From positions 47,138 to 111,137 of the IMG/VR virus record IMGVR_UViG_3300031857_000046: a stretch of DNA of 64,000 bases. One strand, given 5' to 3'. This DNA comes from a virus. Positions within the stretch are counted from its first letter, which is position 1. Every line of letters begins with the position of its first letter. Positions 4,339-62,600 of the stretch are shown piece after piece. The notes under the pieces were generated by a model that made no database searches, was not told the DNA's origin, and was given only the letters and a program-made list of their open reading frames with translations. The position numbers and the translations under genes are program-made.

Positions 4339-7300
4339 TTATATGTTATCGAATGATACGTTTTGTGGAGTTACTGTAAATTCAAGTTCAATGAATTCCA
4401 AAGTAGGTGTTGGTTTGATAAAGATTTTACCTTTTAAAGTATTTCTATCGTTATCTTCAACGTCCATTGCAACGCTAACTCTAAAGTCTGTTAAACCTCT
4501 TTCTTTTCTGATGTTATCCAAGATTGGGTTAACCAAAGACAAGAATTGATTTCTAACTGTGGTATCATTTGGATCGAATAATAATCTCTTAGATACACTC
4601 ATGATCAATCTTCTCGCTTGTAACAACAATCTTCTGATGTTCAATCTATCAAGAGCACTTGATTTAACCTGCAAGTTTCTGTTACCCCAGATAACAACCC
4701 CAACGTCTGAATAAGTCGCTAATGGGTTAATTCTACCTGGATATAAAATATCTCTTGCTTCTTGGTCAAGAACTATACGAGCTCTATTACATTTAACTAA
4801 ACCTCTATTGTAACCAGCAGTTGCAAACCAAGGGAACGCTACGTTATCTGTATAAGCCATATTTCTTACTACCTCAGCAGTAGGTGGGATATACAAGTTT
4901 GCGTTATTGTCTGTATCTGTGATTTGTATCCAAGGATAGTAAACCGCAGTGTAGTTAGAATCGATGTCAGTGTTTTCTAATTCATCAACGATATCTTCAG
5001 CAAAATACCAGTTTTCAGTATCTGATGGGTTGTTGTTGTTTAACAACTTGATATCAGGTAATGTTGGTAAATAAATCGCATCCAATCTCTTTTCTTCAAC
5101 AACTTCAATAGCGTCTCTAACCAAATCAGTGTTGTTTAACACGTCAATACCAGGAGTTGCCAAGATGTTGATAGCGGTTTCTTCTGGGTTTTGGAATGTT
5201 CTGATACCGTACATTGTTGCATAGTAGTCAGAAGTACCGAATAACTCAGCGTACTCAACATTTGTAAATGTATCGAATGTACCAGCTACGAAACCAGTTC
5301 TACCGATTTTGTACTCATCTGTGTTTGTTCTGTTAACTCTATAAGCATCCCAACCATCAAAACCACCAGCAAATAAAGCTGTGAATTTTCTTGTTCTCAT
5401 GTTATTATAAGGGTGAGTTGTTGTTCCGTCAACCACAATTGGGTCAACAAATGAAGCAACACCAACCGCAAAAACTTGTTCTCCAGTAACAGAGTCAACA
5501 ATGGTACTAGCATTGATATCCATGTGGAAACCTTTTGTTTTTGTTGTATAATCATCACCAGTATTGTAGGCGTTGTCACCTAAGATACTAATTTTACCTT
5601 TAAACAATAATAGGTCTTTATCAAATCCAAATTGGCTTGAGAAACCTAAATAGTTTTTAGTTACTCTATCACCACTAGAAACTGTAGCATTAGCAAATGG
5701 TGGGTTGTAAATTGTGTCACCAGGTGCATAATATTTCAATTTGTAAGGCATTTCAGGAACAGCTGTTGCTGTGTAACCACTAGCACTATTTGTTCTAAAT
5801 TCGTAACCTTCAAAACCAGCTGGTACACCATCAGTTGGTGCGTTTACAGCCATTTCAAGAACAACATAAGCGCTCTTTAATGGGTATTTGTTATCAATTG
5901 TACCTATTTTTCTACCAACGAAATTGTCTAATGACTCATCCATCGTACAATCAACAAATTTTTCAATTATTGATACAGCTCTATCTGTGTCGCTAAATGA
6001 TCTGATGTAGATATCAAAAGTTTTCTTAGATAAATCAACATTAGCGATTGAAGCTTTGATTTCAGTGTTAGCACTTGTACCGTCAGAAATTGAAATTAAT
6101 CTGAATAATCTTTGTGGTAAACCACCTCTTAACTCAGATACAAAGAAAGGTGTTACTGGTGATTGATATTGGAATCTATAGTGATCCCAGTTATTAACAG
6201 ATGTTAATTCACTGTATAAACCTTTAATTTTACCACTTAACCAACCAAATTTCAGAGAGTTATCATAAACTTCCTCAACATAGATTTGAGAATCTTTGTC
6301 AGATGGTGTAGTACCGATTACTTTTTTGATATAGTTAGATTTTGTGCTATCTAAAGAAACTGTATAAGAGAATGTACCGCCAGTTGGGTTTGCTGTTGTA
6401 CCAGTTAAATCAAAAGCTAAATATGGGTCGTTAACAACACCTGTTGGAGCGACCATATCTAATGAATTAACTTTATAACCTAACACATCTGAAGTGTAAG
6501 TACCTCTACTTCTAACGGTTGCAACGTTTTTGTTGTGACCTTCAGCGAAAGGATCAGCTGTTAACGTAACAGTGAACAATTCTAATTTACCGTTAAGTGT
6601 GTGAGCACCAGCACCTGTAAATGTATGGCAATATAAAGCAAATGATGGTCCACTGTATGTCTCGGTAGCGGTATTGTACGCTAACTCATTATTTAAAATA
6701 TAAGCGTCTCTATCACTTGTTGGAACTGTGAACGGTAATTCATATGCGTCAATATAAACTGGGGTTATACCATGTGTAGCCGCATCAACCGTTAAATCAG
6801 TATCCATATCGTCAGTCAAAAGACCCCAATATAAAGCGTTTCCGTTATAGAAATCAGCATTAATGTAACTACCAACAGTTGTAAAGAATTGGTTAAACAC
6901 GGTGTCAAAGTCAGTTGTAGCAACACCAGTTAAGTTAGCGATATAATCAATAAGATCGGTGTTACCAGAGTTACCAGTAACATAAAAACTATTGTTATTC
7001 GTGTCAACTTTAAAATTAATGGTTGTTTGTGTAATACCAGTGTGTGATAATGTTGATTCATCACATGCACCTAATGTTTTAATAACCCAAGCCATACCAG
7101 CATCATAGCCAGATAATCCTAAAAGTCTTGTAACATACAATTGGTTTGATTGTGTTAAATACTGTTTTGCTATGTATGGTAATTCATACTTAACAATTTG
7201 TGTATTTTTAAATTTTTCTGGATTAGTACCACCAAAAGTAGTCTTAAATTCATCAAAATTTCTGATGAATATTGGTTGGAACGCTGGACCCTTTAAGGTT

Positions 7301-7404
7301 TCACCCACTACACCTAATGTTGTAACACCAACTGTCTCAGTTGTGAATGTTAAATCTTTTTCGGTTGTGTAGACACCTGGAGATGCATAAACTTTGTTTG
7401 CCAT
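4339..7404 (-). CDS. 18: Tail sheath protein, T4 gp18-like, unusually long
   Basis: Typical sheath ends are visible: the N-terminus MANKVYASPGVYTTEKDLT, and a C-terminal domain with RLNIRRLLLQARRLI, KRLLFDPNDTTVRNQFLSLV and DFRVSVAMD (about residues 905-985). The protein wraps the tube and contracts at infection. At 1021 residues it is roughly 360 longer than T4 gp18 (659). The extra length lies in the middle (roughly residues 90-700), which is Thr, Asp, Asn and Tyr rich and looks like added surface beta domains. It starts with ATG at 7404, 37 bases downstream of a late-promoter motif, and is followed by a strong terminator, so it looks like a single-gene transcript. Confidence 0.92.
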   Translation of the reverse strand: MANKVYASPGVYTTEKDLTFTTETVGVTTLGVVGETLKGPAFQPIFIRNFDEFKTTFGGTNPEKFKNTQIVKYELPYIAKQYLTQSNQLYVTRLLGLSGYDAGMAWVIKTLGACDESTLSHTGITQTTINFKVDTNNNSFYVTGNSGNTDLIDYIANLTGVATTDFDTVFNQFFTTVGSYINADFYNGNALYWGLLTDDMDTDLTVDAATHGITPVYIDAYELPFTVPTSDRDAYILNNELAYNTATETYSGPSFALYCHTFTGAGAHTLNGKLELFTVTLTADPFAEGHNKNVATVRSRGTYTSDVLGYKVNSLDMVAPTGVVNDPYLAFDLTGTTANPTGGTFSYTVSLDSTKSNYIKKVIGTTPSDKDSQIYVEEVYDNSLKFGWLSGKIKGLYSELTSVNNWDHYRFQYQSPVTPFFVSELRGGLPQRLFRLISISDGTSANTEIKASIANVDLSKKTFDIYIRSFSDTDRAVSIIEKFVDCTMDESLDNFVGRKIGTIDNKYPLKSAYVVLEMAVNAPTDGVPAGFEGYEFRTNSASGYTATAVPEMPYKLKYYAPGDTIYNPPFANATVSSGDRVTKNYLGFSSQFGFDKDLLLFKGKISILGDNAYNTGDDYTTKTKGFHMDINASTIVDSVTGEQVFAVGVASFVDPIVVDGTTTHPYNNMRTRKFTALFAGGFDGWDAYRVNRTNTDEYKIGRTGFVAGTFDTFTNVEYAELFGTSDYYATMYGIRTFQNPEETAINILATPGIDVLNNTDLVRDAIEVVEEKRLDAIYLPTLPDIKLLNNNNPSDTENWYFAEDIVDELENTDIDSNYTAVYYPWIQITDTDNNANLYIPPTAEVVRNMAYTDNVAFPWFATAGYNRGLVKCNRARIVLDQEARDILYPGRINPLATYSDVGVVIWGNRNLQVKSSALDRLNIRRLLLQARRLIMSVSKRLLFDPNDTTVRNQFLSLVNPILDNIRKERGLTDFRVSVAMDVEDNDRNTLKGKIFIKPTPTLEFIELEFTVTPQNVSFDNI

Positions 7405-7440
7405 ATTTAGTTAATTTTATTTATTTAATTTTATCTTATT

Positions 7441-7450
7441 CATAAATATC
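7441..7450 (-). promoter_or_regulatory. Putative phage late promoter motif before tail sheath
   Basis: Minus-strand reading is GATATTTATG, 36 bases upstream of the sheath ATG, in the same sense as the other copies of the motif. Confidence 0.5.
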
Positions 7451-7507
7451 AGATTTTTTACCAAAAAACCAGAATACCTCTTCATTTTTAAAATTCTTTA
7501 TTTATTT

Positions 7508-8275
7508 TTAAGTATTTTCCGTTATTGTAAAAGTTCTACTAATCGCTGGTGTTACAATATAATCATCGGGATCTGATATAAACCCTTGTAGGTTAAAATT
7601 GTATAACTGTACGTAAAACCTTTTATTATTAAGGTCAGTAACTTGACTTTCATCTGAAGAGTCTTCTAACACAATTGGTATATAGTGTCCGTTAACTACA
7701 GTATATGCCTGCCTGCTTTGAAAATTTTTTAAAACAGTGGCGTTAAATTTGTTTAGTTCTTGCTGTCTATAAGCAAAAATTCTAACATCATAGGTAATAT
7801 CAACTGGAATTGGTTGAGGTATTTTATAAACATCAACCCCCATTTTATTACCATCCCAAGTAGGTACTTCCGCATATGTATAATGTCTACCAGTTGGTAT
7901 ATTATAAATCAAAGAAGGGTTTGTGCCGTATTTCGTATCTGGGTTTCTAACAATATTAACAAAAGGTATTTTTAAATTTTTATACTCATCTGAAAATTTC
8001 CATGTTTGTGAAAATTCGTTCCATTTTTGAATACCCATCATAAACACAGGGACTTTTTCACCATCAATTGAAATTGCCAATTGATTAGTTACAAAATCTT
8101 TAAAACCCCTATCCAAATCAATATGCATAACACCTTTTGGTAGGTAGGTATCGTTGTTGATGATCATATCTTTCATATTTTCAGCAGCACCGCTTTGCAT
8201 TGAGTAAGGATACTCGATGTTAGCACGTTGTTGTGTTAGATTGATCTTCTTTTTAAATGAACCTGGTAAAGCCAT
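7508..8275 (-). CDS. 15: Tail completion/sheath stabiliser protein, probable T4 gp15-like
   Basis: A 255-residue soluble protein. The segment PIPVDITYDVRIFAYRQQEL (about residues 154-173), then FNATVLKNFQSRQ and VNGHYIPIVLED, resembles the gp15 tail terminator pattern, in which a P-------Y---IF-RY strand precedes a helix and a PF-R strand. T4 gp15 is 272 aa and caps the tail tube to join it to the neck. Position supports this: it lies directly upstream of sheath and 2 bases downstream of the probable gp14-like gene. The end of the protein (ISRTFTITENT) is a plain beta tail. The family call is from remembered pattern and gene order. Confidence 0.6.
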   Translation of the reverse strand: MALPGSFKKKINLTQQRANIEYPYSMQSGAAENMKDMIINNDTYLPKGVMHIDLDRGFKDFVTNQLAISIDGEKVPVFMMGIQKWNEFSQTWKFSDEYKNLKIPFVNIVRNPDTKYGTNPSLIYNIPTGRHYTYAEVPTWDGNKMGVDVYKIPQPIPVDITYDVRIFAYRQQELNKFNATVLKNFQSRQAYTVVNGHYIPIVLEDSSDESQVTDLNNKRFYVQLYNFNLQGFISDPDDYIVTPAISRTFTITENT

Positions 8276-11893: not shown

Positions 11894-12985
11894 ATGAGAA
11901 TAAATCCAACCGAAAAGCAAAAAATATACAAACAAGCCAAACATAGGCTTGGGGCTCCTATTAGGAAGATTCAATTAGAAGATGAACAAATGGACTCACT
12001 TCTTGAAATCGCTACAGAAGATTATGTTGAGTTTATTAATAATTGGTTGATTGAACACCAATGGCCGAGTTTGATTGGTTTAAGCGTTAGCGAAGCTGAT
12101 TTAACCAGGGCTTTTATTTATAGAACTTTTGATTTAGTCACACAATACACATACTCCTACTCAAAAATTGTTGGTTTGGGTGCTGGTGAGGGTGGTTATG
12201 TTCTTAAAAAAGATTACGTTGAGTTAGTTAAGGGTCAACAAATATATGAGATTCCAGCAAATAGAGAGATAAATGAAGTGTTATGGTTTACACCAGCTTC
12301 ATTGGATCAATCTGTAATCGACCCATTCTTAGGTGTTTGGAACAATCAATTCGGTGCCGAATATATGGGTTTGGGTAGTTATTACATTTTACCAGCTTTT
12401 GACATTTTAATGAGAACAACGGATAGAAACCTTAAAAATAGGATGATTCGTTCTGAGTTAATATATAAGATCACAAATGCGCCTGATGGCAAAAAATATC
12501 TTCATTTAATGAATACGCCAGGTGGTAAATTTGACTTTAGGGGTTCAATGCTAGATCAAGGTAAATGTTGGTATTGGTATTATGATATTAACCCATTAAT
12601 TAAAGATGATTGTTTGGCAAAAAACAAAGATATCATTAAATCACCAGCTGATGTTCCTCTGGATGATATATCATTTGATGACCTAAATGATCCAGCTAAA
12701 GTTTGGATTAGAAGATATTTTATTGCTTTGTGTAAAGAAACTTTGGGTAGAGTAAGAGGTACTTTTGGTGGTAAAATACCAGTTCCAGACGCAAATATGG
12801 AAATTGAATACCAGTCACTTTTATCAGAAGGTAAGGATGAAATGGTTACACTTAAAAAAGAATTAGAGGACAGAATGTTCAAATTAAACCCATTGGAAAT
12901 TCTTAAAAGAATGTCTACTGAGGCTGAAGAAATTAACAAAGCTCTTAAATACAGAGCGTTCCAAAAACCAATTAAGATTATATAA
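11894..12985 (+). CDS. 13: Neck protein, T4 gp13-like
   Basis: Started at ATG 11894 (MRINPTEKQKIYKQAKHRLG) it has 363 residues; T4 gp13 has 309. The N-terminal helix ends in LGAPIRKIQLEDEQMDSLLEIA, very like the gp13 opening in which a 'LGAP--KI-L-DEQ-' phrase leads into a helical bundle. A QQIYEIPANREINEVLWF segment (about residues 117-134) and, near the C-terminus, YFIALCKETLGRVRG..FGGKIP and MEIEYQSLLSEGKDEM are typical of marine gp13-like proteins. It plugs the portal side of the head before tail joining. It is followed without a gap by the Gly-Ser fibre gene (stop and start overlap by one base), so the two are translationally linked. Confidence 0.75.
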   Translation: MRINPTEKQKIYKQAKHRLGAPIRKIQLEDEQMDSLLEIATEDYVEFINNWLIEHQWPSLIGLSVSEADLTRAFIYRTFDLVTQYTYSYSKIVGLGAGEGGYVLKKDYVELVKGQQIYEIPANREINEVLWFTPASLDQSVIDPFLGVWNNQFGAEYMGLGSYYILPAFDILMRTTDRNLKNRMIRSELIYKITNAPDGKKYLHLMNTPGGKFDFRGSMLDQGKCWYWYYDINPLIKDDCLAKNKDIIKSPADVPLDDISFDDLNDPAKVWIRRYFIALCKETLGRVRGTFGGKIPVPDANMEIEYQSLLSEGKDEMVTLKKELEDRMFKLNPLEILKRMSTEAEEINKALKYRAFQKPIKII

Positions 12986-14640
12986 TGTTTTATACAGCCC
13001 TAGATAATAGTGATTATTTTGATTTAATTGTCACAAAAGATTGTCGTGATTTTTATCGTGATTATAACGAATGTAATTTAATAAATATTAATATTACTGA
13101 AAATCTATGCTCAATACCTGGGAGTATTCAAACAGAAGAAGTTGAATTAAAAAACATAACGTTAACAGGTTATGATAATTTTTTTATACCCAACGGAGAG
13201 ATATCAAATATCAATAATTTCACGGGTGACACAATAGGATACACTGTGAATGAAAATATTGTTGTTGACGTTAATAAAGATTTAACATATGTTATTGAAA
13301 CTGGTGATACTTTTTGTTTTCATGAAATATCTGGTTATAGCGGAAATTACTGTTATGAGATTGATCACCTAAATGTTGACAATGGTATATACTATAATAA
13401 ATTAAATGGCGGTTTTTACCAGGGATTCTACAAAATTTTTGGTGAAAATGTTGAGTGGTTCCCAGCTAGAGCAAAAATGGGTTGGACCGTTGATATGGTT
13501 GTCCATTTCCCAATGGATGTACCAGGTAGTTCAGGGTCATCTGGTAGTTCAGGGTCTTCTGGATCATCTGGCAGTTCTGGTTCTTTTGGGTCTTCTGGAT
13601 CATCAGGTAGTTCTGGGTCATCTGGTAGTTCAGGGTCTTCTGGATCATCTGGTAATTGCGTAACTCTAAATAAAGTATATCCAAATAATAGCGGTTTTAT
13701 TTTTTATCTGGGGACAAGAGCTGAAAATAAATTTGCTGATAAAACTGATATTGAAATTCAAAGATTTGAGGATAATTACGACATAGTACCTCTAAACACA
13801 ACAAATTTATTTACCTATAATAACCTAATAACATTAAATGGTTTAACGAATTATATTGGTTATTTTAATTATTATAATGGTTTAATGTATACTGGTAGAA
13901 ATTATACAGTAGACTCACAACCTTTACAATACCACCAAGAATATAGTGATCTCACGTATAATGCGTTTGGTATAAGAGTCACCAATGATGGTAGAATCGG
14001 TTACAGAACAATATACCCAACTGATATATGTTATACAGGCGTAACCCAAGAAGTTAGTGGTATAACAAACAACTCGTTTATTATGGACCCAATTGATGAC
14101 TGTGTTAATTATACAAGATCACTAATTGTTACAAAATATTTTACAATAGAGGAGTGTTATACAAAAAACCCTGTTATTGATGTAACGGAAAATAAATTCT
14201 TGAATATAACTGGTGTATTTGAAAGAGATTTTTCTTATGGGAATAACTGTCAGTTAAAATATGGTGATTATAAAAAAGGTACCTTCTCAATATACCTTAA
14301 TGGGTTCTTAGTTTTTAGGAATAGGAATTTTGTTGAGGTGATACCACATGAATTAGATATTGATTCGAAATACCAGGAAGGTGTCCCCTTTAATATTTCA
14401 TTTGGTGGTGGGACCCAAAGCTTAATCGACCCTGTGGTATTTGATGAAAACAAAGTACTTGGTACTGTTTTAGAAAGATTTTTTGCTGGAACATTCCTAG
14501 GTGGTGTTAAATCAATTAAAATGTATTGTGTACCATTGTACACTGTTGAGGTTAAAAAAGAATTTAGAAATATTGCGGGTATATATAATTTGCCGATAAT
14601 AAAGGGTGGTAGACAGATATTTATAAAAAATTTATTCTAA
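12985..14640 (+). CDS. Virion fibre-like protein with a Gly-Ser-Ser repeat linker
   Basis: 551 residues in three parts: an N-terminal beta-rich domain with many Tyr, Asn and Cys (about 1-180), a GSS tripeptide tract (about residues 181-222, 14 units with one Phe variant), and a C-terminal beta-rich part (about 225-551) with LamG-like strands (GTFSIYLNGFLVF, KSIKMYCVPLYT). The Gly-Ser tract is a flexible or collagen-like stalk between two globular domains. The same vocabulary dominates the large fibre at 59697. Position next to the neck gene suggests a neck whisker, fibre or adhesin. I do not recognise the terminal domains. Start at 12985 overlaps the gp13 stop. Confidence 0.7.
   Translation: MFYTALDNSDYFDLIVTKDCRDFYRDYNECNLININITENLCSIPGSIQTEEVELKNITLTGYDNFFIPNGEISNINNFTGDTIGYTVNENIVVDVNKDLTYVIETGDTFCFHEISGYSGNYCYEIDHLNVDNGIYYNKLNGGFYQGFYKIFGENVEWFPARAKMGWTVDMVVHFPMDVPGSSGSSGSSGSSGSSGSSGSFGSSGSSGSSGSSGSSGSSGSSGNCVTLNKVYPNNSGFIFYLGTRAENKFADKTDIEIQRFEDNYDIVPLNTTNLFTYNNLITLNGLTNYIGYFNYYNGLMYTGRNYTVDSQPLQYHQEYSDLTYNAFGIRVTNDGRIGYRTIYPTDICYTGVTQEVSGITNNSFIMDPIDDCVNYTRSLIVTKYFTIEECYTKNPVIDVTENKFLNITGVFERDFSYGNNCQLKYGDYKKGTFSIYLNGFLVFRNRNFVEVIPHELDIDSKYQEGVPFNISFGGGTQSLIDPVVFDENKVLGTVLERFFAGTFLGGVKSIKMYCVPLYTVEVKKEFRNIAGIYNLPIIKGGRQIFIKNLF
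13525..13653 (+). repeat. Gly-Ser-Ser coding tandem repeat
   Basis: A 9-base unit (GGT/GGG/GGA + TCA/TCT/AGT pairs) is repeated about 14 times. Codon choice alternates so that neighbouring copies are not identical in DNA. Any slippage by whole units keeps the frame. Confidence 0.85.
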
Positions 14641-15087: not shown

Positions 15088-18000
15088 ATGATTATGGCCG
15101 AATACAAGATTTCCCTTGAAGAGATAGAAAAGTTTTTAAATGGGCACGATGATGAGAAATACATCGTGAATGTTGAGTACGATGCCGAAACTAATCTGAT
15201 CCATAAAGTTAAACAAGATCCAGAAAGGGGTAATTATATTGAAACCGAACCATTACTCGCTTTCATGTGGATTAAAAACCTTAATAAAATTAAGGAACTA
15301 ACCAATTTTTACGGTAATAGTGATGCCAAAATTAAGTCCGCTAGACAAAGATTTGGTATTGAAATCAAAGCTTTAGGTGGTGACCACCCAAAGTTAATTG
15401 ACGGTTATAGGTATTTGGTTACATGTAATCAGGGTCACAAAAGAATGTTAGATTTTTTTAGAGAGGGTGGTATTTTTGTTTACGACAAAAGACATGATAT
15501 TAACACTCATTTCTTAATGATATCACCTGTCGAGCAGTATTTTATACATACTGGTAAGCGTTTGTTTAAGGGATTTGAAGAATACGATGAGATTCACAAA
15601 TTTATATTTGACTTAGAGACAACAGGGTTAGACCCAGCCATCAATCGTATTTTCTTGATTGGTATCTACACCAATTTAGGCGTTAGAGAAATCATACCCG
15701 TTGAAGATGATGATGAATCTGAAAGACAAGCCATTACAAAATTCTTTGAGAAAATTAATGAGATTAAACCAACCATCATTGCTGGTTATAATAGTGCAAA
15801 CTTTGACTGGCCATTCTTCTTTAAAAGATGTGAAATTCTTGGTTTAAATATTCAGGATATCGCAATTACCTTAAAAGTTGGTGAATTAATCAACAACAAA
15901 GATAGTATTTTAAAGCTGGGTAACGAGGTTGAGGACTACACCCAAACTAATATGTTTGGTTATAGCGTTATCGATATCATACACTCAGCTAGACGTGCAC
16001 AAGCAATTGATTCAAGCATGAAATCGGTTGGTTTGAAATATGTTTGTAAGTATAACAAGATTGCAAAAAAGAATCGTGTTTATATTGTTGGTGATAAAAT
16101 TGGTAACACATGGTACTCAAAAGATAAATTTTATTTTGATGATAGAACAGGTGCCTACTCTAAAACAAAACCAGCTTTGGAGTTCATGGATTACATTCGT
16201 AGAGAAGATGTTCAGGCTAACCCAGATAAAGTGTTTGTTTTTGGTGATAATATTTTAAGACAAGGACTTGGCGGTCAGGCAAAAGAAATGCGTGGAGAAC
16301 CGAATGTCATTGGTATCGTAACCAAGCACACCCCAGAATCAACACCAGAATCTTATTTCAATGATAAGGATTTTGAAATACTTAAAAAACACATAGATTC
16401 CGATATTAATCAAATAATCGAAAAGATTAAAGAAGGTAAGACAATCGTTTTCCCTAAAATGGGTATCGGTACAGGTTTGGCTCAGTTAGATATGAGAGCC
16501 CCAAAAACATTCAAGTATCTAAAGGGTTTATTAAGTGCGTTACGTGATTACATTAATACTTTTCAAGAAGTTGATGGTAGATATATCGTTGAGCGTTACT
16601 TGATTGATGACTTATGGGAAACTATGGAAGTGGACGATGTTTATAACCAGTCATCGTTCTTGTTAGCTAAATTAGTACCAACAACATATCAAAGGGTTTC
16701 TACCATGGGTACAGCTGGTCTATGGAAATTATTGATGATGACGTATTCATTTGAAAATGATTTGGCAATACCAGTATCGGATGTTAAAAGAGATTACACA
16801 GGTGGTTTATCAAGATTATTTAAAGTTGGTTATTCAACCACTTTAAGAAAGATGGACTACAACTCACTTTACCCAGCTATTCAGTTGGCCCATGATGTAT
16901 TCCCAAGTGTTGATGTTAACGGTGCGATGAAATCGATGTTAAAGTATTTCCACACCGAACGTTTTAAAGCTAAAAACTTAGCCAGCAAATACAAAAAAGA
17001 AGGTAATTACCAATTGGCTGACAAATATAAACGTAAACAATTACCACTTAAGATCTTTATTAACTCGATGTTCGGTGCCCTTGGTGCACCTATGGCTTTC
17101 CAATGGGCTGAAATTGATGTCAGTGAACGTATTACTTGTACGGCAAGACAATACTTAAGATTAATGGTTACATTCTTCCTTAAACGTGGGTACACGCCTT
17201 TAGTACTTGATACGGATGGTGTTAACTTCATGGCACCAAAGAACGGTGAGCCATTTACCTATATCGGTAAGGGTTTAAATGATGAGGTTGAAGCTGGTAA
17301 AGAATATACTGGTGTTAAAGCTGTGGTAGCTGAATTTAATGACACCTATATGCGTGGTGAGATGGGTCTTGGTTTAGATGGTATTTGGCCAGCGACAATT
17401 AACTTATCTAGGAAAAATTACGCTTTACTAGAAGATGACGGGTCAATTAGTTTAACTGGTAACAGTATCAAATCAAAAGCTATGCCCGTTTACATTGAAG
17501 AGTTTTTGGGTAAGGGTATGAAAATGTTATTGAATGGTCATGGCTATGAGTTTGTACAATATTACTACGAATACGCTGAGAAAGTGTGTAATAGAGAAAT
17601 ACCTTTAGCTAAGATTGCCACAAAAGCTAGGGTTAAGAAGTCGATAAATGCTTATATAAATCGTGGTGGTGATAAAAATGGTAAGCAGTTGGCAAAACAA
17701 GCTCACATGGAGTTGGCAATAAAACATAATCTTGATGTTAATCTTGGTGATACAATTTATTATGTTAATAATGGTAAAACAAAATCACATGGTGATGCCC
17801 AAGAAAATAAGGATGGGGAAATGTATGCAACATTGGTACCAAATGAAATTATTGAAAACCAACCAGATTATATTGGTGAATACAATGTACCTAAATATTT
17901 AGAAGCCTTAAATAAAAAGGTTGAACCTTTATTAGTTGCGTTTCCACTTGAAGTTAGAGATAAAATTTTAATTAAAAAATCTGGCGAAAGAACAATGTTC

Positions 18001-18192
18001 TTAAGATCTGAGTTAGATTTGGTAAACGACCAACCTACAGATATTGAAGACCAAGACACTTTAGAAGAATTTTTTACCCCATCTCAAATGGAAAAAGAAT
18101 TCTGGGCTAAAATGAATTATGAATCAGATTATTGGTTTTCAGATAAAATAACTTTCAAAATACCTGGTTTAGACGAAGAATTTACGGTATAG
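15088..18192 (+). CDS. 43: Family B DNA polymerase (T4 gp43-like) with an inserted domain
   Basis: 1034 residues, the replicative polymerase with 3'-5' exonuclease. Visible motifs: Exo I FDLETTG (D175, E177), Exo II YNSANFD (N235 to D240), Exo III Y504-x3-D508, motif A MDYNSLYP (D590), motif B KIFINSMFGALG (about 653), motif C LDTDGVN (D708, D710). Between Exo II and Exo III lies an in-frame segment of 119 codons (about residues 368-486) with VFVFGDN, RQGLGGQAKEMRGEPN, GIVTKHTPES and FPKMGIGTGLAQL. This belongs to a separate small-domain family (DUF7831-type as I recall it) and is not part of other polymerases. Without it the length, about 915, is close to T4 gp43 (898). A second ATG two codons in (15094, MAEYK) is an equally likely start. 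All catalytic residues are present. Confidence 0.95.
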   Translation: MIMAEYKISLEEIEKFLNGHDDEKYIVNVEYDAETNLIHKVKQDPERGNYIETEPLLAFMWIKNLNKIKELTNFYGNSDAKIKSARQRFGIEIKALGGDHPKLIDGYRYLVTCNQGHKRMLDFFREGGIFVYDKRHDINTHFLMISPVEQYFIHTGKRLFKGFEEYDEIHKFIFDLETTGLDPAINRIFLIGIYTNLGVREIIPVEDDDESERQAITKFFEKINEIKPTIIAGYNSANFDWPFFFKRCEILGLNIQDIAITLKVGELINNKDSILKLGNEVEDYTQTNMFGYSVIDIIHSARRAQAIDSSMKSVGLKYVCKYNKIAKKNRVYIVGDKIGNTWYSKDKFYFDDRTGAYSKTKPALEFMDYIRREDVQANPDKVFVFGDNILRQGLGGQAKEMRGEPNVIGIVTKHTPESTPESYFNDKDFEILKKHIDSDINQIIEKIKEGKTIVFPKMGIGTGLAQLDMRAPKTFKYLKGLLSALRDYINTFQEVDGRYIVERYLIDDLWETMEVDDVYNQSSFLLAKLVPTTYQRVSTMGTAGLWKLLMMTYSFENDLAIPVSDVKRDYTGGLSRLFKVGYSTTLRKMDYNSLYPAIQLAHDVFPSVDVNGAMKSMLKYFHTERFKAKNLASKYKKEGNYQLADKYKRKQLPLKIFINSMFGALGAPMAFQWAEIDVSERITCTARQYLRLMVTFFLKRGYTPLVLDTDGVNFMAPKNGEPFTYIGKGLNDEVEAGKEYTGVKAVVAEFNDTYMRGEMGLGLDGIWPATINLSRKNYALLEDDGSISLTGNSIKSKAMPVYIEEFLGKGMKMLLNGHGYEFVQYYYEYAEKVCNREIPLAKIATKARVKKSINAYINRGGDKNGKQLAKQAHMELAIKHNLDVNLGDTIYYVNNGKTKSHGDAQENKDGEMYATLVPNEIIENQPDYIGEYNVPKYLEALNKKVEPLLVAFPLEVRDKILIKKSGERTMFLRSELDLVNDQPTDIEDQDTLEEFFTPSQMEKEFWAKMNYESDYWFSDKITFKIPGLDEEFTV
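16189..16554 (+). repeat. Nine-base direct repeats bounding the polymerase insertion
   Basis: GATTACATT occurs at 16189-16197 and again at 16546-16554, exactly 357 bases (119 codons) apart. The pair marks the borders of the extra domain: the protein reads MDYIRRED before and RDYINTF after. This is what an insertion by short-homology recombination or a target duplication would leave. Confidence 0.7.
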
Positions 18193-23032: not shown

Positions 23033-23337
23033 TGGTAGTATTTAAAGATCAAATAAAAGCTTATAAAGCGATCACACAAGATATCTTAAACCAGATAGAA
23101 TATAAAACTGTTTGGTCTGGTAAAAGAATTGAGGTGGGTGATAAAGTTTTGTACGCATTTGTATACCCTTTAAATTCAGAGGACTATAAATTAGCAACGT
23201 TCCTTGAACGTGAATTAGATGAAGTTAACCAAATCTTCACCTATGTACAAACAATAAAAGGTATTATACCTGTATTAAAATATAAAAATGATAATCTTGT
23301 GAGAGATTTAATCATAGAGGAAGAGGATGAGTCATAA
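23032..23337 (+). CDS. Small hypothetical protein, 101 aa
   Basis: Not recognised. VVFKDQIKAYKAITQDILNQIEYK forms a helix, followed by a strand-rich region with a VWSGKRIEVGDKVLYAF phrase and a C-terminal acidic tail (LIIEEEDES). Overlaps dUTPase by one base and the next glycosyltransferase by 11 bases, so it is co-translated with them. Confidence 0.65.
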   Translation: MVVFKDQIKAYKAITQDILNQIEYKTVWSGKRIEVGDKVLYAFVYPLNSEDYKLATFLERELDEVNQIFTYVQTIKGIIPVLKYKNDNLVRDLIIEEEDES

Positions 23338-24763
23338 AATTAGTATCGTTTTCTCAACGAGAAAAATAGAAAATAGTTTCATTGAACATGTTAAAAAAAC
23401 ATGTATGTATAAGGGTGTTGAAGTTTTGCCTTATGAAAATAAGGGTGAATATTCTTTAACCGAAATATATAATAAGGGTTTAAACGAGGCATCAAGCGAT
23501 ATTGTTATTTTTTGTCATGACGATATCTTGTTTGAAACAAAAAATTGGGGTGAAAAAGTTTTAAAAGCTTTTGAAAAAAACCCTGAATATGGTATTCTTG
23601 GTGTTGCTGGTACTAACCACATGATTAGTGGTATGTGGTGGGAAGTGCGTAATGCGATGCATGGAACTGTTAAACATACCGATGGTGTAAAAACATGGAC
23701 AAACAAATACTCCGCAAATTACGGCAACCAATTAAAAGAAATGGTTGCTGTTGACGGTTTATTTATTGCTGTTAATAAGGCCAAAATAGAAAATGTTTTT
23801 GATGATAGATTTAAAGGTTTTCATTTTTATGATATATCATTTTGTTTATCAAACCATATTAACGGTGTCAATATTGGGTTAATATCAAATATAACAATAT
23901 TACATAAATCTGTTGGCCAAGTTAATGAACAATGGATGGAAAATAAAACTTTGTTTGAAGAAATATATGGCGATAAATTACCTATTTGTTTAAACGAAGA
24001 AACAAAACATATTATCTTCGATAAAGAATTACCAAAGATTGATATGCATGTTCTTTGTTGGAATGAGGAAAAGATTATACCATACTTCTTAAATCACTAT
24101 GAAAATTTTGTTACAAACATTATTGTTTACGATAATAAATCAAATGATAACACCAATAAACTTTTAAAAGCGCACCCAAAGGTTACTATTATACCTTATG
24201 ACACAAATGGGGAAATAAGAGATGACGCTTATCTTCAAATAAAAAACAACGCCTGGAAAAATTCAATCGGTAAAGCTGATATTGTTATAGTTTGCGATAT
24301 GGATGAATTTTTGTATGCGGAAGATTTTAAATCAGCGATTATTGAGTTTAATAACAGCGATGCCACGATAGTTAAACCAACTGGGTATGATATGATTGTT
24401 TCTGATTTTAATTTTGATTATACAAATAAATTAACAGACCTTGTTAAAACTGGTTATAAAAACAACCTCTTTGATAAGATGGTTATGTTTAAGACAAAAA
24501 ACATAACTGATATGAATTATAACGGTGGTTGTCACGTAGCGGCACCTAGAGGTAACAAAGTTAGTCTATTTGAAAATAAATTCTTATTACTACATTATAA
24601 AAGACTTGGGTTAAAATATTTTTTAAATAAAATGTCTGCTTACAGAAAAAGGTTAAGTGATTTTAATAAAAAATATAAGCTTGGTTATGAATATGAATTT
24701 GATAACAATAAACATACCGAAGATTTTAATGAGTCTTTAAATAAAATAGTTGAGGTTATTTAA
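23327..24763 (+). CDS. Two-domain glycosyltransferase (GT2-like plus GT92-like)
   Basis: 478 residues. The first half (about 1-220) is a GT-A-like domain: SHKISIVFSTRKIENSF, NKGLNEASSDIVIFCHDDILF (acidic HDD in the DxD position), and VAVDGLFIAVNKAK. The second half (about 230-478) starts a new domain: IDMHVLCWNEEKIIPYFLNHY, NIIVYDNKSNDNT, and DIVIVCDMDEFLYAED, the pattern of GT92/DUF23-like transferases. A bifunctional enzyme adding two sugars in turn is the likely reading. It overlaps the gene before it by 11 bases. The acceptor is unknown. Confidence 0.75.
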   Translation: MSHKISIVFSTRKIENSFIEHVKKTCMYKGVEVLPYENKGEYSLTEIYNKGLNEASSDIVIFCHDDILFETKNWGEKVLKAFEKNPEYGILGVAGTNHMISGMWWEVRNAMHGTVKHTDGVKTWTNKYSANYGNQLKEMVAVDGLFIAVNKAKIENVFDDRFKGFHFYDISFCLSNHINGVNIGLISNITILHKSVGQVNEQWMENKTLFEEIYGDKLPICLNEETKHIIFDKELPKIDMHVLCWNEEKIIPYFLNHYENFVTNIIVYDNKSNDNTNKLLKAHPKVTIIPYDTNGEIRDDAYLQIKNNAWKNSIGKADIVIVCDMDEFLYAEDFKSAIIEFNNSDATIVKPTGYDMIVSDFNFDYTNKLTDLVKTGYKNNLFDKMVMFKTKNITDMNYNGGCHVAAPRGNKVSLFENKFLLLHYKRLGLKYFLNKMSAYRKRLSDFNKKYKLGYEYEFDNNKHTEDFNESLNKIVEVI

Positions 24764-24796
24764 GTTTAGCAACTATTTAATTTAAAAAAATATTGT

Positions 24797-25804
24797 ATGG
24801 GATTTTTTAGGATAAAAAAAAGAGTAAAGACTGATAATAATTCTGAGGTCAATACCGTTGATTTTAATAATGAAAGTGATGACATTGTGGAAGAAAGATT
24901 ACCTGAAACGCAAAAATCTTCAATCAGAAAAAAATATACAGGTGATAACACTGGTGAACCATACATGAGTAAGCAACCAAAAATTATTAAAGTAGAAACC
25001 GAAAAACCTATAAATAAGTTTTTTAAGAAGAATGATCGTATTATAGATTATTCAATGCCAGATATAACTGAAACGTTTGGTGTTATCGATAACATTAATA
25101 AAGTAAAACCTTACCCTTTTAGACAAAGAAGATTAGCGGTCTTTATACATATGTATTACCCAGATTTATGGGATACACTAGATTCATACTTAAATAATAT
25201 CAGGTGTGATTTTGATTTATATGTTAATATTGTTATAGATAACTATGATCAAGAAACTGTGTATAAAATAATTGACAAATACCCAAATGCTAAAATAATA
25301 AAAAATATTAATAAAGGTAGGGATATCGGTGGGTTAATAACGATGTCAAAATATATTATTAAAAATCAGTATGACTCCATATATTTTATACACACAAAGA
25401 AAAGCCCGCATTTAAAAAGTGGTCATGTTTGGAGAACTGATATGTTAAACACTTTAATGGGTAGTGAAACAAAAATAACTAATTTTATAAAAGATATAAG
25501 ATATAACGATGTTGGTTTAATAGCACCTGGATTATATCTGACAAAATCAATGGGTAGTAACTACAATAACCTAAAAAGACTTTTAAATTTATATGAAATC
25601 GAATATGATTTAAATAATTTAGAGTTTTCGGCTGGAACTTTTTTCTTATGTAGTGCGGAATTAATTGAAGAAATAGGTTCATTAATGGATTTATCTTATT
25701 TTGAAGACGGTTCTGATTTAGATGGGCAGATGGCTCATGCTTTTGAAAGATTTTTACCTATACTAATAACAAAGAAAATTAATAAAACAACAAAATATGT
25801 CTAA
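24797..25804 (+). CDS. RgpF-like rhamnan synthesis family protein
   Basis: 335 residues. Residues about 115-300 hold the RgpF (rhamnan synthesis F) pattern: LAVFIHMYYPDLWDTLDSYL, FDLYVNIVID, NINKGRDIGGLI, YDSIYFIHTKKSPHL and RTDMLNTLMGS, then VGLIAPG. These proteins process rhamnose-containing polysaccharides and are often fused to or neighbour glycosyltransferases. The first ~100 residues are a charged, disordered extension. It overlaps the WbsX-like gene by 8 bases, so the two probably act in the same pathway. Function beyond the family name is not established. Confidence 0.8.
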   Translation: MGFFRIKKRVKTDNNSEVNTVDFNNESDDIVEERLPETQKSSIRKKYTGDNTGEPYMSKQPKIIKVETEKPINKFFKKNDRIIDYSMPDITETFGVIDNINKVKPYPFRQRRLAVFIHMYYPDLWDTLDSYLNNIRCDFDLYVNIVIDNYDQETVYKIIDKYPNAKIIKNINKGRDIGGLITMSKYIIKNQYDSIYFIHTKKSPHLKSGHVWRTDMLNTLMGSETKITNFIKDIRYNDVGLIAPGLYLTKSMGSNYNNLKRLLNLYEIEYDLNNLEFSAGTFFLCSAELIEEIGSLMDLSYFEDGSDLDGQMAHAFERFLPILITKKINKTTKYV

Positions 25805-26879
25805 GCCAAAAATTATTTGTTTTTATTTACCACAATTCCATCCTTTTGACGAAAACGATACTTTTTGGGGGCGTGGTTTTACCGAGTGGAATAATTTATA
25901 TGATGTAAAAACATTTCACAAAGACCAAAAATTTATGAGAACATCATATGAATTTGGGGATTATGATTTAAGAAGTTATAAAGTTAGAAAAAGACATGCT
26001 GAATTAGCTAAAGAGCATGGTATTGACGGTTTTTGTCTTTACCATTATTGGTTTTATGGGCACCCAGGTAATAAAGTTATGTACGAAGTTGCGGAAAGGA
26101 TGTTAGAAGACGGTGAACCAAACATAAATTTTTGTTTTGAATGGGCAAATGAACCGTGGACAAAAACATGGGATGGGATGGAGAAAAACTATCTGATTAA
26201 ACAAGAGTATGGTTCTGAAAAAGACTGGACCGAACATTTTAATTATTTACTTAAGTTTTTTAAACATAAAAATTACATAAAAGTGGATAATAAACCAATG
26301 TTTCTTGTTTATAGAATGGAGCATTTTAAAGAGTTTGATAAATTTAAAGATTTTTTTAATCAACTGGCTATAAAAGAAGGTTTTGACGGAATTATTTTTT
26401 CACAAACATTAAACCATTTTAACCAGGATGGTAGTAATTATGGTGTTAATAAAAACGCTGATGCTTATATTGAATACCACCCAATGTTCATAAATAGGTT
26501 TTCTAAACCAGAACCAGAAAGCAATGAAAAAGCGACAATTTTTTATGCGCCAAAAAAATGGGAAAAAATTGTTAAATTTAAAAAACCAGAAGAAATTGGT
26601 GACAAGCCGTACATACGTGGTTTTTATAGCGGTTGGGATTCTTCGCCAAGAGCTAAGAATAGATCGGCTACTATTGATCTTTACAATGACCCAAAAACCT
26701 TTGAATTTTATTTAAAACAACAAATAGAAAATGTTGTTGAAGATAACAACGAACCGTATAATTATTTATTTATTTTTGCCTGGAATGAGTGGGGTGAAGG
26801 TGCGGTAATTGAACCAAGTGATTTATACGGAAATCAATATTTACTTGCTATAAAAAATTCATTGAATGGCGTTAAATAA
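25797..26879 (+). CDS. WbsX-like glycan-processing protein (GH99-like)
   Basis: 360 residues that open with the hallmark KIICFYLPQFHPFDENDTFWGRGFTEWNNL and continue with GIDGFCLYHYWFYG, NFCFEWANEPW and, near the C-terminus, IFAWNEWGEGAVIEP. This is the WbsX/DUF5010-like family, common in O-antigen and exopolysaccharide clusters, related in fold to GH99 and often called a glycosyltransferase. The conserved acidic residues in NEPW and WNEWGEG are intact. It overlaps both flanking genes (8 and 14 bases). It probably acts on the same sugar chain as the RgpF-like protein. Confidence 0.88.
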   Translation: MSKPKIICFYLPQFHPFDENDTFWGRGFTEWNNLYDVKTFHKDQKFMRTSYEFGDYDLRSYKVRKRHAELAKEHGIDGFCLYHYWFYGHPGNKVMYEVAERMLEDGEPNINFCFEWANEPWTKTWDGMEKNYLIKQEYGSEKDWTEHFNYLLKFFKHKNYIKVDNKPMFLVYRMEHFKEFDKFKDFFNQLAIKEGFDGIIFSQTLNHFNQDGSNYGVNKNADAYIEYHPMFINRFSKPEPESNEKATIFYAPKKWEKIVKFKKPEEIGDKPYIRGFYSGWDSSPRAKNRSATIDLYNDPKTFEFYLKQQIENVVEDNNEPYNYLFIFAWNEWGEGAVIEPSDLYGNQYLLAIKNSLNGVK

Positions 26880-46832: not shown

Positions 46833-47546
46833 ATGGGTATAAAAATATTAAAAGAAAACGAAGAAGGTTTTGGTATCTTAATTGAAGGTGATGCTGGTTC
46901 AGTATCTGAGGTATTACAAGGACAAATTATAAATGAAGAAATTAGTAGGGGTCCAATAGATTTATCTGGACCCATATACTATTACGCTACATTACAAAAA
47001 TATGGTGTTGAGAATAGAAATGGCCGAGTGTATCCAGAAGACATTTTGAGAAGAGAAGTTGAAAGATATAGAGAAGTTATTGCTCGCAATTCTAGTTTTC
47101 ATGAATTGGATCACCCACAAGAATCTGTTATTTCGTTAAAAGGTGGTTCGCCACACAGAATAGTTGATATGTTCTGGAAAGATAATGTTCTTATTGGTAA
47201 ACTAGAGATATTAGTATCTGAAGGCTTTAGGAGAGGTGGTATTATATCTTGTAATGGTGATTTAGTCGCACATTACCTAAGTTATGGTATGACATTAGGC
47301 ATCTCTTCAAGAGGTGTTGGTAGTCTTAAAAAAGTTGGTGGTAAAAATGTTGTACAAAGTGACTTCGAATTAATCTGTTGGGATATCGTTTCATCCCCAT
47401 CTACACCAGGCTCCTATCTTTATAAAGATCCACAAGACTTTAAAAAATATGATGAGGTTTTAAATGAGCCAAAGGAAATTGAGGAGAGTACCGCACCAGA
47501 AGAGAACGATTTTTTGGCAAATCTTAATAAATTTTTGAAATTTTAA
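46833..47546 (+). CDS. 21: Prohead core protease, T4 gp21-like
   Basis: 237 residues (T4 gp21: 212). The serine-protease motifs are visible: the His of SSFHELDHPQESVI (about residues 87-100), and a C-terminal serine region YGMTLGISSRGVGSLK (about 151-166), followed by a FELICWDIVSSPSTPGS strand (about 178-194). The YYATLQKYGVENRNGRVYPEDILRREVERY start is typical of phage prohead proteases. It cleaves scaffold and capsid during head maturation at L/I-x-E sites. It is the first gene of the protease, scaffold, capsid group, in the T4 order. Confidence 0.9.
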   Translation: MGIKILKENEEGFGILIEGDAGSVSEVLQGQIINEEISRGPIDLSGPIYYYATLQKYGVENRNGRVYPEDILRREVERYREVIARNSSFHELDHPQESVISLKGGSPHRIVDMFWKDNVLIGKLEILVSEGFRRGGIISCNGDLVAHYLSYGMTLGISSRGVGSLKKVGGKNVVQSDFELICWDIVSSPSTPGSYLYKDPQDFKKYDEVLNEPKEIEESTAPEENDFLANLNKFLKF

Positions 47547-59696: not shown

Positions 59697-62600
59697 TTAT
59701 TTCTTTAAATCTTGGATCTCTTTATCAAGATCTTTTATCGCCTCGATAAGTAAACCAACCAAGTTTGAGTAAGCTACCGCTAAGTGTCCATCGGATTCCC
59801 TTGTCGAGATAACTTCTGGGACAACTTTTTGAACTTCCTGTGCAATAACACCCATTTTCAAAGATTTATCTTCAATATCATTTCTTGTATAGTTAACACC
59901 TCTCATATTTCTTACTTTATTTAAGGCATCACTAATTGTAACAACATTGTCCTTAACTCTTTGATCTGAGTATGCAATAACATCAGCAGATGCGTAGATA
60001 GTACCAGTAACATCTAATGTATATGCTGGAGTAGCGTTGTTAATACCTAATCTTGTATTAGCTATATCCGCTTTCAAGAAGCTAACGCTTTGTACTTGTG
60101 TTGTACTCACAGTTCTAACTAAGTAGTCAGGTTGGTTTGTGAATGAACCACCGCTGATACCTGATGTACCGCTAATTGATTGTCCACTTGTTCCAGCAAC
60201 ACCTGATGTACCGTTTGAACCATTAATACCTGAAGTACCACCAGCTCCATTTGCACCTGAGTTACCAGCAGCTCCAGCGGTACCATTTGTACCATTTGCA
60301 CCAGATGTACCATTTGTACCAGATGTACCTGAAGAAGCTGACAATCTACCAGTACCAGCCGTACCGCCAGCACCTGAAGTACCAGATGTACCTGAAGTAC
60401 CAGAAGATCCGTTAGCACCCGAAGTACCGTTAGCACCAACACCTGATGTACCAGCACCTGATGTACCTGAAGTACCAGCTGTTGCTGAAGTACCAGAAGA
60501 ACCAGCTGTACGAGAAAGACCCGATACACCACCAGTACCAGTTGTACCACCTGTTGCAGAAGAACCTGATAAACCACTAATACCTGAGTTACCGTTGTTA
60601 CCAGACGTACCGTTTGTACCAGTTGATCCTGAAGAACCAGAAGTACGAGATAAACCACTAGCCCCAGCGTTACCATTATTACCAACAGTACCGTTTGTAC
60701 CAGTTGATCCTGAACTACCTGATGTACCACTTGCCTGTGTTACGCCAAAACCTGCGCTTAATGCATTAGCACCCACAGTACCATTTGTACCGCTTGATCC
60801 TGAAGAACCAGAAGAGCCAGAGTTTGCAGAAGCACCAATGTTACCAGCATTACCTGAAGTACCATTTGTACCAGTTGATCCAGATGAGCCACTTAATGCT
60901 GACGCACCTATGTTACCCGCAGCACCGTTTGTACCATTAGACCCTGAAGAACCAGATGAACCAGAGGCTCCTGAGTTAGCAACTAAACCTATTGTACCGC
61001 TTGTACCTGAAGAACCACTTGATCCTGAAGCACCTGATATTCTATCATTACCACTTGTACCCTGAGTACCAGTTGATCCAGAAGATCCAGATGAACCAGA
61101 GTTTGCCGATAATCCGTTAGCACCAGCATTACCTGAGGTACCGTTTGTACCTGTAGATCCAGACGAACCACTCAATGCTGATGCACCAATGTTACCCGCA
61201 GCACCATTTGTACCATTTGTTCCCGAAGAACCAGATGTACCTGAAAGTGTACTTGTACCAGAAGGAACAACCAAACCATTTGTACCAGCCGTACCTGTAG
61301 ATCCAGATGAACCACTATTACCTGAGTTACCGTTAGCGCCATTGTTACCGTTAGTACCGTTTGTACCATTTGAACCCGATAAACCACTATTACCTGAGTT
61401 ACCGTTAGCGCCATTGTTACCGTTAGTACCAGTAGAACCATTTGTACCACTTAAGCCAGAGTTACCGCTGTTACCATTCACACCGATAGTACCATTTGTT
61501 CCTGAAGAACCACTTGATCCAGAAGAACCAGATAATCTTGATAAACCTGAAACACCATCTGTACCTGAAGTACCAGTTGATCCAGCTGAACCTGAAGAAC
61601 CTGAGCTTCTGCTTAAACCCGATTGACCATCTGTACCTGAGGTACCTGATGTTCCAGCTGTTGCAGAAGAACCAGCTAATCTACTTAAACCTGATGTACC
61701 AACCGTACCGTTTGTTCCTGAAGAACCACTTGATCCAGACGAACCTGAAGCACCTGAGTTAGCCATTAAACCGACTGTACCGTTTGTACCGTTTGAACCA
61801 CTTGAACCAGATGCACCACTTACAGCGTTGTTACCATTGTTACCTGAGGTACCGTTTGTACCTGTAGATCCAGACGAACCACTCAATGCTGATGCACCAT
61901 TACCACCGTTTATACCGTTTGTACCAGTTGACCCTGAAGAACCGCTAGAGCCAGAGTTAGCACTCAATCCGTTGTTACCCGCAGCACCATTTGTACCAAA
62001 CGTACCTGATGATCCTGAAGAACCTGAAAGTGTACTTGTGCCAGAAGGAACGGCTAAACCATTTGTACCAGCCGTACCTGTAGATCCAGATGAACCAGAA
62101 GATGCTGAAGAACCACTTAATTGTGATAAACCTGAGTTACCAGTTGTACCTGAAGTACCAGTTGAACCACTGGTACCTGAAGAACCAGAGTTTCTTGATA
62201 ACCCTGACGCACCATCAGTACCCGCAGTACCAGTTGTACCAGAAGAACCTGAAGTTGCAGAAGAACCAGCTAATCTACTTAAACCTGATGTACCATTTGT
62301 ACCATTTGTTCCTGAAGAACCAGATGACCCTGAGGAACCAGAAGCACCTGAGTTAGCCATTAAACCAACAGTACCGTTTGTACCATTAGATCCTGAAGAG
62401 CCTGAAGCGCCACTTACCGCATTGTTACCATTATTACCGTTAGTACCGTTTGTACCTGTAGATCCAGACGAACCTGAGTTTGCAGAGGCACCACTATTAC
62501 CAGCAGCTCCAGCAGTACCATTTGTACCAGTTGTTCCTGAAGAACCTGAAGAACCCGACAATTGTGATAAACCACTATTACCAGCAACACCCGCAGTACC

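Follow-up and report, generated by a model that had tools for sequence, protein, structure and literature searches.

The subject of this analysis is a family B DNA polymerase encoded by a single open reading frame (ORF) in the virus record IMGVR_UViG_3300031857_000046, of which we analysed positions 47,138 to 111,137 as one stretch of 64,000 nucleotides (the window). A further domain, DUF7831, is inserted into this polymerase. The protein has Pfam matches to the PolB exonuclease and polymerase domains, and both the Exo and Pol motifs and the B-family fold are present: a full-length AlphaFold2 model built on 53 aligned rows (predicted local distance difference test score, pLDDT, 86.6; predicted template modelling score, pTM, 0.78) has B-family polymerases as its top PDB matches, with Z up to 26.0. 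An earlier note, made from the sequence alone, had reported all B-family motifs to be present, and we confirm D240 and Y504-x3-D508 at the residues it gave.

The segment preceding Exo III is a complete copy of DUF7831 (Pfam PF25176; PHROG phrog_2072). Searched alone against Pfam it matches this family at E=8.4e-46. The family match of the polymerase scores 150.3 bits against a curated cut-off of 27 and spans model positions 2-116 of 118. The earlier note had pointed to stand-alone proteins of DUF7831 type, and the segment does belong to that separate domain family. The conserved motifs of the family (FGDN, GGQAKEMRGExN, TK and GIGTG) are all found in the window copy, and VFVFGDN, LGGQAKEMRGEPN and GIGTGLAQL all lie within the Pfam match. 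The other members encountered are encoded by short genes with a hypothetical annotation or belong to giant phage proteins, whereas the window copy resides within a DNA polymerase. No Pfam intein or homing-endonuclease match was found in the window protein. In a more distant relative (L027), the polymerase carries near motif C an in-frame insert (6801-7859) with a LAGLIDADG domain (PF14528, E=2.3e-10), as in an intein; two further polymerases (L028 and L029) are interrupted at the same place by approximately 2.5 and 2.7 kb, with the frame changed.

Comparison with relatives establishes that DUF7831 is an insertion. We examined 111 polymerase loci and removed four that did not cover the site and ten carrier loci that repeated contigs already counted; L119, which spans the site by BLAST score yet is without the domain, was counted as a non-carrier, and L104, which holds just the first 34 domain residues at a contig end, was left out of the counts. 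After these removals, 25 distinct viral contigs carry DUF7831 in the polymerase and 72 do not. Between the flanking alignment columns lie 137 residues in 16/16 carriers, as against 14-22 in the 37 of the 72 non-carriers that were aligned for this measurement. Because 72 relatives lack DUF7831, it is not part of the normal exonuclease fold, an interpretation that is thereby ruled out; the segment is a genuine addition to the polymerase, as had been claimed, and it is this addition that sets the window protein apart from the phage and archaeal B-family polymerases that it otherwise resembles in domain matches and fold. In the profile of the 53-row alignment the site corresponds to approximately residues 293-295 of a Pfu-type polymerase.

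The earlier count of 119 extra codons agrees with a net gain of 115-123 residues relative to non-carriers, but the junctions fall near residues 360 and 492 and not at the nine-base direct repeat, GATTACATT, that had been thought to bound the segment. The two copies are indeed 357 bases apart; they start at residues 368 and 487, both within the insert. An identical pair occurs in one of the 14 carriers checked, and when 2000 pairs of 90-base segments were drawn at random from this gene at a spacing of 357 bases, 162 had a 9-mer in common. The repeats look like chance, not evidence of the insertion event, and on their location, their rarity among carriers and this chance rate we reject the proposed capture by short-homology recombination at GATTACATT as unsupported.

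By best segment, identity to the window polymerase is 60-100% among carriers and approximately 56% for the closest non-carriers. In a tree computed without the insert columns, a single branch separates the 16 carriers from the rest, with a Shimodaira-Hasegawa approximate likelihood-ratio test (SH-aLRT) value of 100, a distribution explained by one change, with the caution that long branches meet at L022 and L024. A domain-only tree, based on few columns, likewise groups the 16 embedded copies apart from 51 others (support 100/98). According to these trees, DUF7831 was gained once in the polymerase clade. The embedded copy is the sole DUF7831 in the seven carrier records searched and none was found in the 21 non-carrier records, any of these 28 records possibly being a fragment; the window's own record of 111,137 bases has one. 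Two carriers, L008 and L020 (domain loci L041 and L057), are placed differently by the two trees: the polymerase tree joins them to the window's clade (SH-aLRT 91) and the domain tree joins their domain copies to those of L009 and L013/L014/L018 (99/96). Exchange of the domain from one lineage to another may account for this conflict, as may effects of rate.

The inserted domain has been retained under constraint. Ratios of non-synonymous to synonymous substitution (dN/dS) were estimated for 14 pairs by the pairwise Nei-Gojobori method, with synonymous sites near saturation in many. Within the window's clade (six pairs), the domain has values of 0.037-0.070, the exonuclease part 0.024-0.104 and the polymerase part 0.022-0.058; these support purifying selection on the domain, at a constraint similar to that of the flanking polymerase, and bear out the suggestion that the domain had been kept after its acquisition. 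In the other eight pairs the domain value is 0.067-0.233; relative to that of the polymerase it is 1.0-3.0 in six pairs and approximately tenfold in L008-L020, where changes are few, and is not computable in L008-L009. The domain is in frame in all 25 carriers. Among 65 aligned family members, G386 and G396 are each changed in four, and since these four are L009, L013, L014 and L018, all embedded, loss of the two glycines is confined to polymerases within one section of the clade. L013, L014 and L018 also have G463 changed, as does a single copy in a giant protein (L073). The residue at K413 is R in L014 and L in four stand-alone copies (L081, L086, L091 and L101), and T412 is changed in four other members. 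In the window's clade every one of these motifs is intact.

A functional lead comes from the A1S_2505 family of phage non-structural proteins (NF049995). When 65 DUF7831 members were compared with NCBIfam they gave weak rows only; A1S_2505 was among these, at E 0.17 in a single member, and became the lead. Profile comparison by hhalign, with column-shuffled decoys, links DUF7831 to A1S_2505 (93.75%, E=1.8e-7) and A1S_2505 to DarG macrodomains (93.4%, 2.5e-7), with 0/100 decoys as high in either case; other alignments gave 90.2% (1.5e-6) and 91.8% (7.3e-7), respectively. The first profile sets had been picked by motif, which favours motif columns (24/26 DarG-like and 59/80 A1S-like sequences, both among the matches listed; further sets took 39/42 non-redundant references and 13/13), and the test was therefore redone without a motif filter. 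Families clustered by BLAST only, from loci originally retrieved with DNA patterns for DarG and A1S_2505, again linked DUF7831 to A1S_2505 (86.5%, 4.6e-6; 79.7%, 1.5e-5 with the embedded copies excluded) and A1S_2505 to DarG (90.4%, 1.4e-6), with 0/60 decoys as high in each of the three comparisons. Without the filter, PTK was present in 48/68 and the GCG motif in 46/68 A1S-family sequences among the matches listed. Three A1S_2505 members were verified as NF049995 (E 7.5e-44 to 6.5e-41), with no Pfam match in any of them, and two DarG macrodomains by NF048014 and PF01661, the former scoring below its whole-protein cut-off because the macro part alone was submitted. As a control, DUF7831 was compared with 14 phage ORF families: A1S_2505 (39.4) and the DarG-type family (22.0) came top, and no score among the remaining 12 exceeded 16.6.

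The alignment of DUF7831 with A1S_2505 extends over 80-82 columns. Across the bridge to DarG, the counterparts of FGDN are FGSN and the second N in VNxVN, those of TK are PTK and the DarG TK, and those of GIGTGLA are GCGLAG and GCGLGG. A1S_2505 is unlike DUF7831 in being without the KEMRGExN segment, and its NCBI name gives no activity. A1S_2505 itself (for example L332:5986-6321, minus strand) looks related to DarG-type macrodomains. Compared with PDB, it has macrodomain proteins in the best eight of 12 rows, all weak (E 0.063-0.63); C6orf130 among these is TARG1 and 2afc is BT1257. According to published accounts, 4j5s is TARG1 and BT1257 is a macrodomain (PMC9411070, PMC5179494), and SCO6735, BT1257, TARG1 and DarG form the ALC1-like class, in which SCO6735 is active without the catalytic lysine (PMC9411070). 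A model of the DUF7831 domain (pLDDT 93.3, pTM 0.87), re-aligned with 996 chains, ranks the DarG macrodomain of Thermus aquaticus first (Z 5.6, root-mean-square deviation 3.9, 108 aligned) and that of Mycobacterium tuberculosis sixth (Z 4.9), a weaker line of evidence than the profile bridge. By way of A1S_2505, DUF7831 can be aligned with the DarG/TARG1 macrodomains in motif order, with putative equivalents of the TK with the catalytic lysine and of the glycine loop, and is probably their relative. On the DarG residue numbers of PMC5179494 we propose N388 as the counterpart of DarG N22.

What such a domain might do in a polymerase is suggested by the DarTG system. Thymidines in single-stranded DNA are the target of DarT, which affects replication; DarG reverses the modification by stripping ADP-ribose from DNA, with K80A inactive and N22A the next worst mutant (PMC5179494). 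In human cells DarT targets active replication sites (PMC8501950). Furthermore, PolB mutations enable T-even phages to escape DarTG (PMC11348598), and escape through polymerase mutations is likewise reported elsewhere (PMC10684548; PMC11481870). We infer for the window domain an ADP-ribose ligand, catalysis through K413, DNA as substrate and an anti-defence role. In this reading, a phage ancestor of the clade acquired DUF7831, a small and divergent macrodomain-like fold related to the DarG/TARG1 group, in the loop that immediately precedes Exo III. Held on the polymerase, it would bind and remove ADP-ribose in cis, the likeliest substrate being the adducts that DarT-type defence enzymes make on thymidines where the DNA of the fork is single-stranded; removal of the adduct would let the polymerase pass, and the hydrolase would act where the lesion blocks the phage. 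AdfB, AdfA and PolB escape are likewise phage answers to DNA ADP-ribosylation, one of them through the DNA polymerase; these are separate proteins or polymerase mutations, whereas in the window a domain has been inserted. DUF7831 also follows a SLOG domain in one protein (L061), and SLOG-Macro-NADAR combinations are reported for viruses (PMC9503650); it occurs in a virion RNA polymerase (L047) as well. We read the window domain, as the best explanation, as a module that processes ADP-ribose while tethered to the polymerase and that may be a de-ADP-ribosylase of DNA, and we put the proposal as a whole at a probability of roughly 0.4. That the window's copy processes ADP-ribose stands a little below even odds. 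A replicative polymerase with a built-in DarG-like de-ADP-ribosylase that clears thymidine-ADP-ribose ahead of the active site, the same module having been attached to further phage nucleic-acid machines such as a virion RNA polymerase, is a tentative extension, and one more apt to fail than to hold. The ADP-ribose-like ligand suggested by the earlier note gains support from the profile links and is still a prediction.

Several results weigh against this proposal. Compared directly, DUF7831 and DarG profiles give a non-significant probability of 2.8-4.7%, with 8/150 decoys as high in one run and 0/60 in another. PF01661, the macrodomain family, has no match in the window protein at E up to 1. 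In the model there are four strands of at least three residues, as against six in DarG and in the macrodomain fold, a six-stranded mixed sheet flanked by helices; the Z scores to DarG are below 8, weak and tied with rows of unrelated folds, and Foldseek found no PDB entry at E 0.001 with the domain model (best E 0.027). Because the direct comparison, PF01661 and the strand count all fail, we call DUF7831 macrodomain-like and stop short of classing it with the macrodomains. No convincing solved relative was found by sequence (best E 0.48), PADLOC gave no match, and a search for A1S_2505 in 142 genomes of one class returned nothing, with control matches also absent. Among the phages themselves, 72 related polymerases manage without the domain, and in sister lineages the pocket has decayed, glycine motifs being broken in 4/14 sampled embedded copies, G463 also in three of them, with R for K413 in one. 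Together with the four stand-alone copies that have L for the lysine, these copies mean that not all DUF7831 members can be catalytic through the lysine and glycine loop. A wider ADP-ribose toolkit is not visible, since Macro, NADAR and A1S_2505 had no match in 8/8 carrier records, the window's included (these may be fragments); A1S_2505 was found in one of 21 non-carrier records (G164).

With tblastn at E 0.001 the domain was found in 99 of 50,697 phage records and 9 of 72,556 plasmid records, and 76 loci in viral contigs and nine in genome contigs were fetched; apart from the polymerases, these comprise short stand-alone genes and very large ORFs, among others. One of the latter (L047:1-6348) combines DUF7831 with a virion RNA polymerase (phrog_2206, E=1e-75; PF21867), one (L055) matches a virion structural protein, one (L061:1-6339) has DUF7831 after a cpYpsA SLOG domain (PF12694, E=1.1e-26), and one (L063) weakly resembles, outside the domain, phages named cr and CrAssphage. 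BFVD holds DUF7831-like models in Tupanvirus, Hyperionvirus and Yasminevirus and in large proteins of the uncultured phages cr130_1, cr131_1 and cr272_1, presumably crAss-like phages. Around the stand-alone copies we read six annotated phage regions and scanned 10 of their genes and 10 of 22 further neighbours. A fixed partner gene was not found in these regions and scans; eight of the 20 scanned neighbours had a Pfam match above cut-off, of which seven are nucleic-acid-related, and the neighbours vary (two SNF2 helicases, a metallophosphoesterase, ParB/DNA methylase, DndB, polyA/CCA polymerase, RNA ligase and a gp59-like protein). In Microcystis phage Mwe-JY26 (L327:3989-6365) and Caulobacter phage C1 (L328:3989-6269), an SNF2-type helicase gene is found downstream of DUF7831, adjacent to it in C1 and beyond one small intervening gene in Mwe-JY26; similarity to these helicases occurs at just 2/76 loci, at one of which (L064) it is directly downstream.

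Of the alternatives, the strongest is that the insert serves as a structural or protein-protein module, docking to clamp, single-stranded DNA-binding protein or helicase or steering DNA between the polymerase and exonuclease sites, while an ancestral pocket is being lost. The site before Exo III would suit such a module. Glycine motifs can break in the embedded copies while every carrier stays in frame, dN/dS is below 0.25 in all 14 pairs, and K, E, R, G, E and N of KEMRGExN are identical in 65/65 members. Even so, we regard it as rather unlikely: the window's clade keeps all motifs in a domain about as constrained as the polymerase, and most stand-alone copies, which have no polymerase attached, retain the same motifs; four stand-alone copies lack the lysine.

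It is also conceivable that the domain is a sensor, in which binding of nicotinamide adenine dinucleotide (NAD), ADP-ribose or a cyclic ADP-ribose signal shifts the balance between exonuclease and polymerase; regulation of proofreading, as the earlier note had it, is possible. Its location directly before Exo III and the tandem of SLOG and DUF7831 would be consistent with this. Sensor roles have been ascribed to some domains of the Macro and SLOG kinds (PMC9503650). We have found no regulatory evidence, however, and the TK motif, equivalent to the catalytic lysine, is conserved in 60/65 members, so that a sensor seems improbable. Less plausible still is a domain that degrades small soluble ADP-ribose derivatives of bacterial immunity with the polymerase as a mere carrier: such a carrier would bring no obvious gain for a diffusible substrate, and the matched neighbours of stand-alone copies, varied as they are, are nucleic-acid-related in seven of eight cases. 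The faster evolution and motif loss of the L009, L013, L014 and L018 copies might suggest a neutral, decaying insertion without function, but the purifying selection seen, none of the 14 pairs coming anywhere near a dN/dS of 1, the intact frame in 25/25 carriers and retention since the ancestor of polymerases now approximately 60% identical already disfavour this idea and make it very improbable.

The features of the polymerase are collected in Table 1. Elsewhere in the window, positions 23327-26879 hold a glycan gene cluster (family 2 glycosyltransferase, RgpF-like and WbsX-like proteins), 12985-14640 encode a protein with a long GSS repeat tract mid-sequence, and 59697-63704 on the minus strand form a 1335-codon open frame overlapping several plus-strand open frames.

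Table 1 Features of the polymerase gene, in coordinates of the 64,000-nucleotide window; all lie on the plus strand.
Feature	Position	Strand	Basis
B-family DNA polymerase ORF with inserted DUF7831	15088..18192	+	single open frame, 1034 aa; Pfam, fold
Exo I motif DLE (D175, E177)	15610..15618	+	translation; both residues invariant in 53-row alignment
Exo II aspartate D240	15805..15807	+	translation; invariant in 53 rows
Insertion relative to non-carrier polymerases, approximately residues 360-492	16165..16563	+	homology to relatives
DUF7831 (PF25176) domain, residues 365-479	16180..16524	+	Pfam, E=2.6e-44 in whole protein
GATTACATT copy 1, apparent chance repeat inside insert	16189..16197	+	sequence
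N388 of FGDN, proposed equivalent of DarG N22	16249..16251	+	64/65 family members; register via A1S_2505
KEMRGEPN, residues 399-406	16282..16305	+	K399, E400, R402, G403, E404 and N406 identical in 65/65 aligned members
T412-K413, proposed counterparts of T79 and the catalytic K80 in DarG	16321..16326	+	T 61/65, K 60/65; profile register; DarG residues per PMC5179494
G461-T-G463 of GIGTGLA, proposed equivalent of DarG G117-G121 loop	16468..16476	+	G461 64/65, G463 61/65; profile register
GATTACATT copy 2, apparent chance repeat inside insert	16546..16554	+	sequence
Exo III motif Y504-x3-D508, immediately after insert	16597..16611	+	translation, 53-row alignment
Polymerase motif C DTD (D708-D710)	17209..17217	+	translation, 53-row alignment

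No mention of DUF7831 by name was found in the literature, nor, among the matches listed, any description of a macrodomain in a DNA polymerase, in searches that used few wordings and did not extend to most subscription papers. As far as these searches show, the present lead is the first functional one for the family and the architecture is new for a known polymerase family. If the proposal is true, a phage polymerase carries its own repair enzyme for a DNA lesion made by host defence, a design that we have not found described, and the uncharacterised DUF7831, which we encountered in giant viruses and plasmids as well as in phages, would be given a biochemical function that can be put to the test. 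An assay with DarT-modified oligonucleotides already exists and makes the question directly answerable. Were the polymerase indeed to act as a de-ADP-ribosylase, the decay of the pocket in sister lineages would be the record of a lost arms race.
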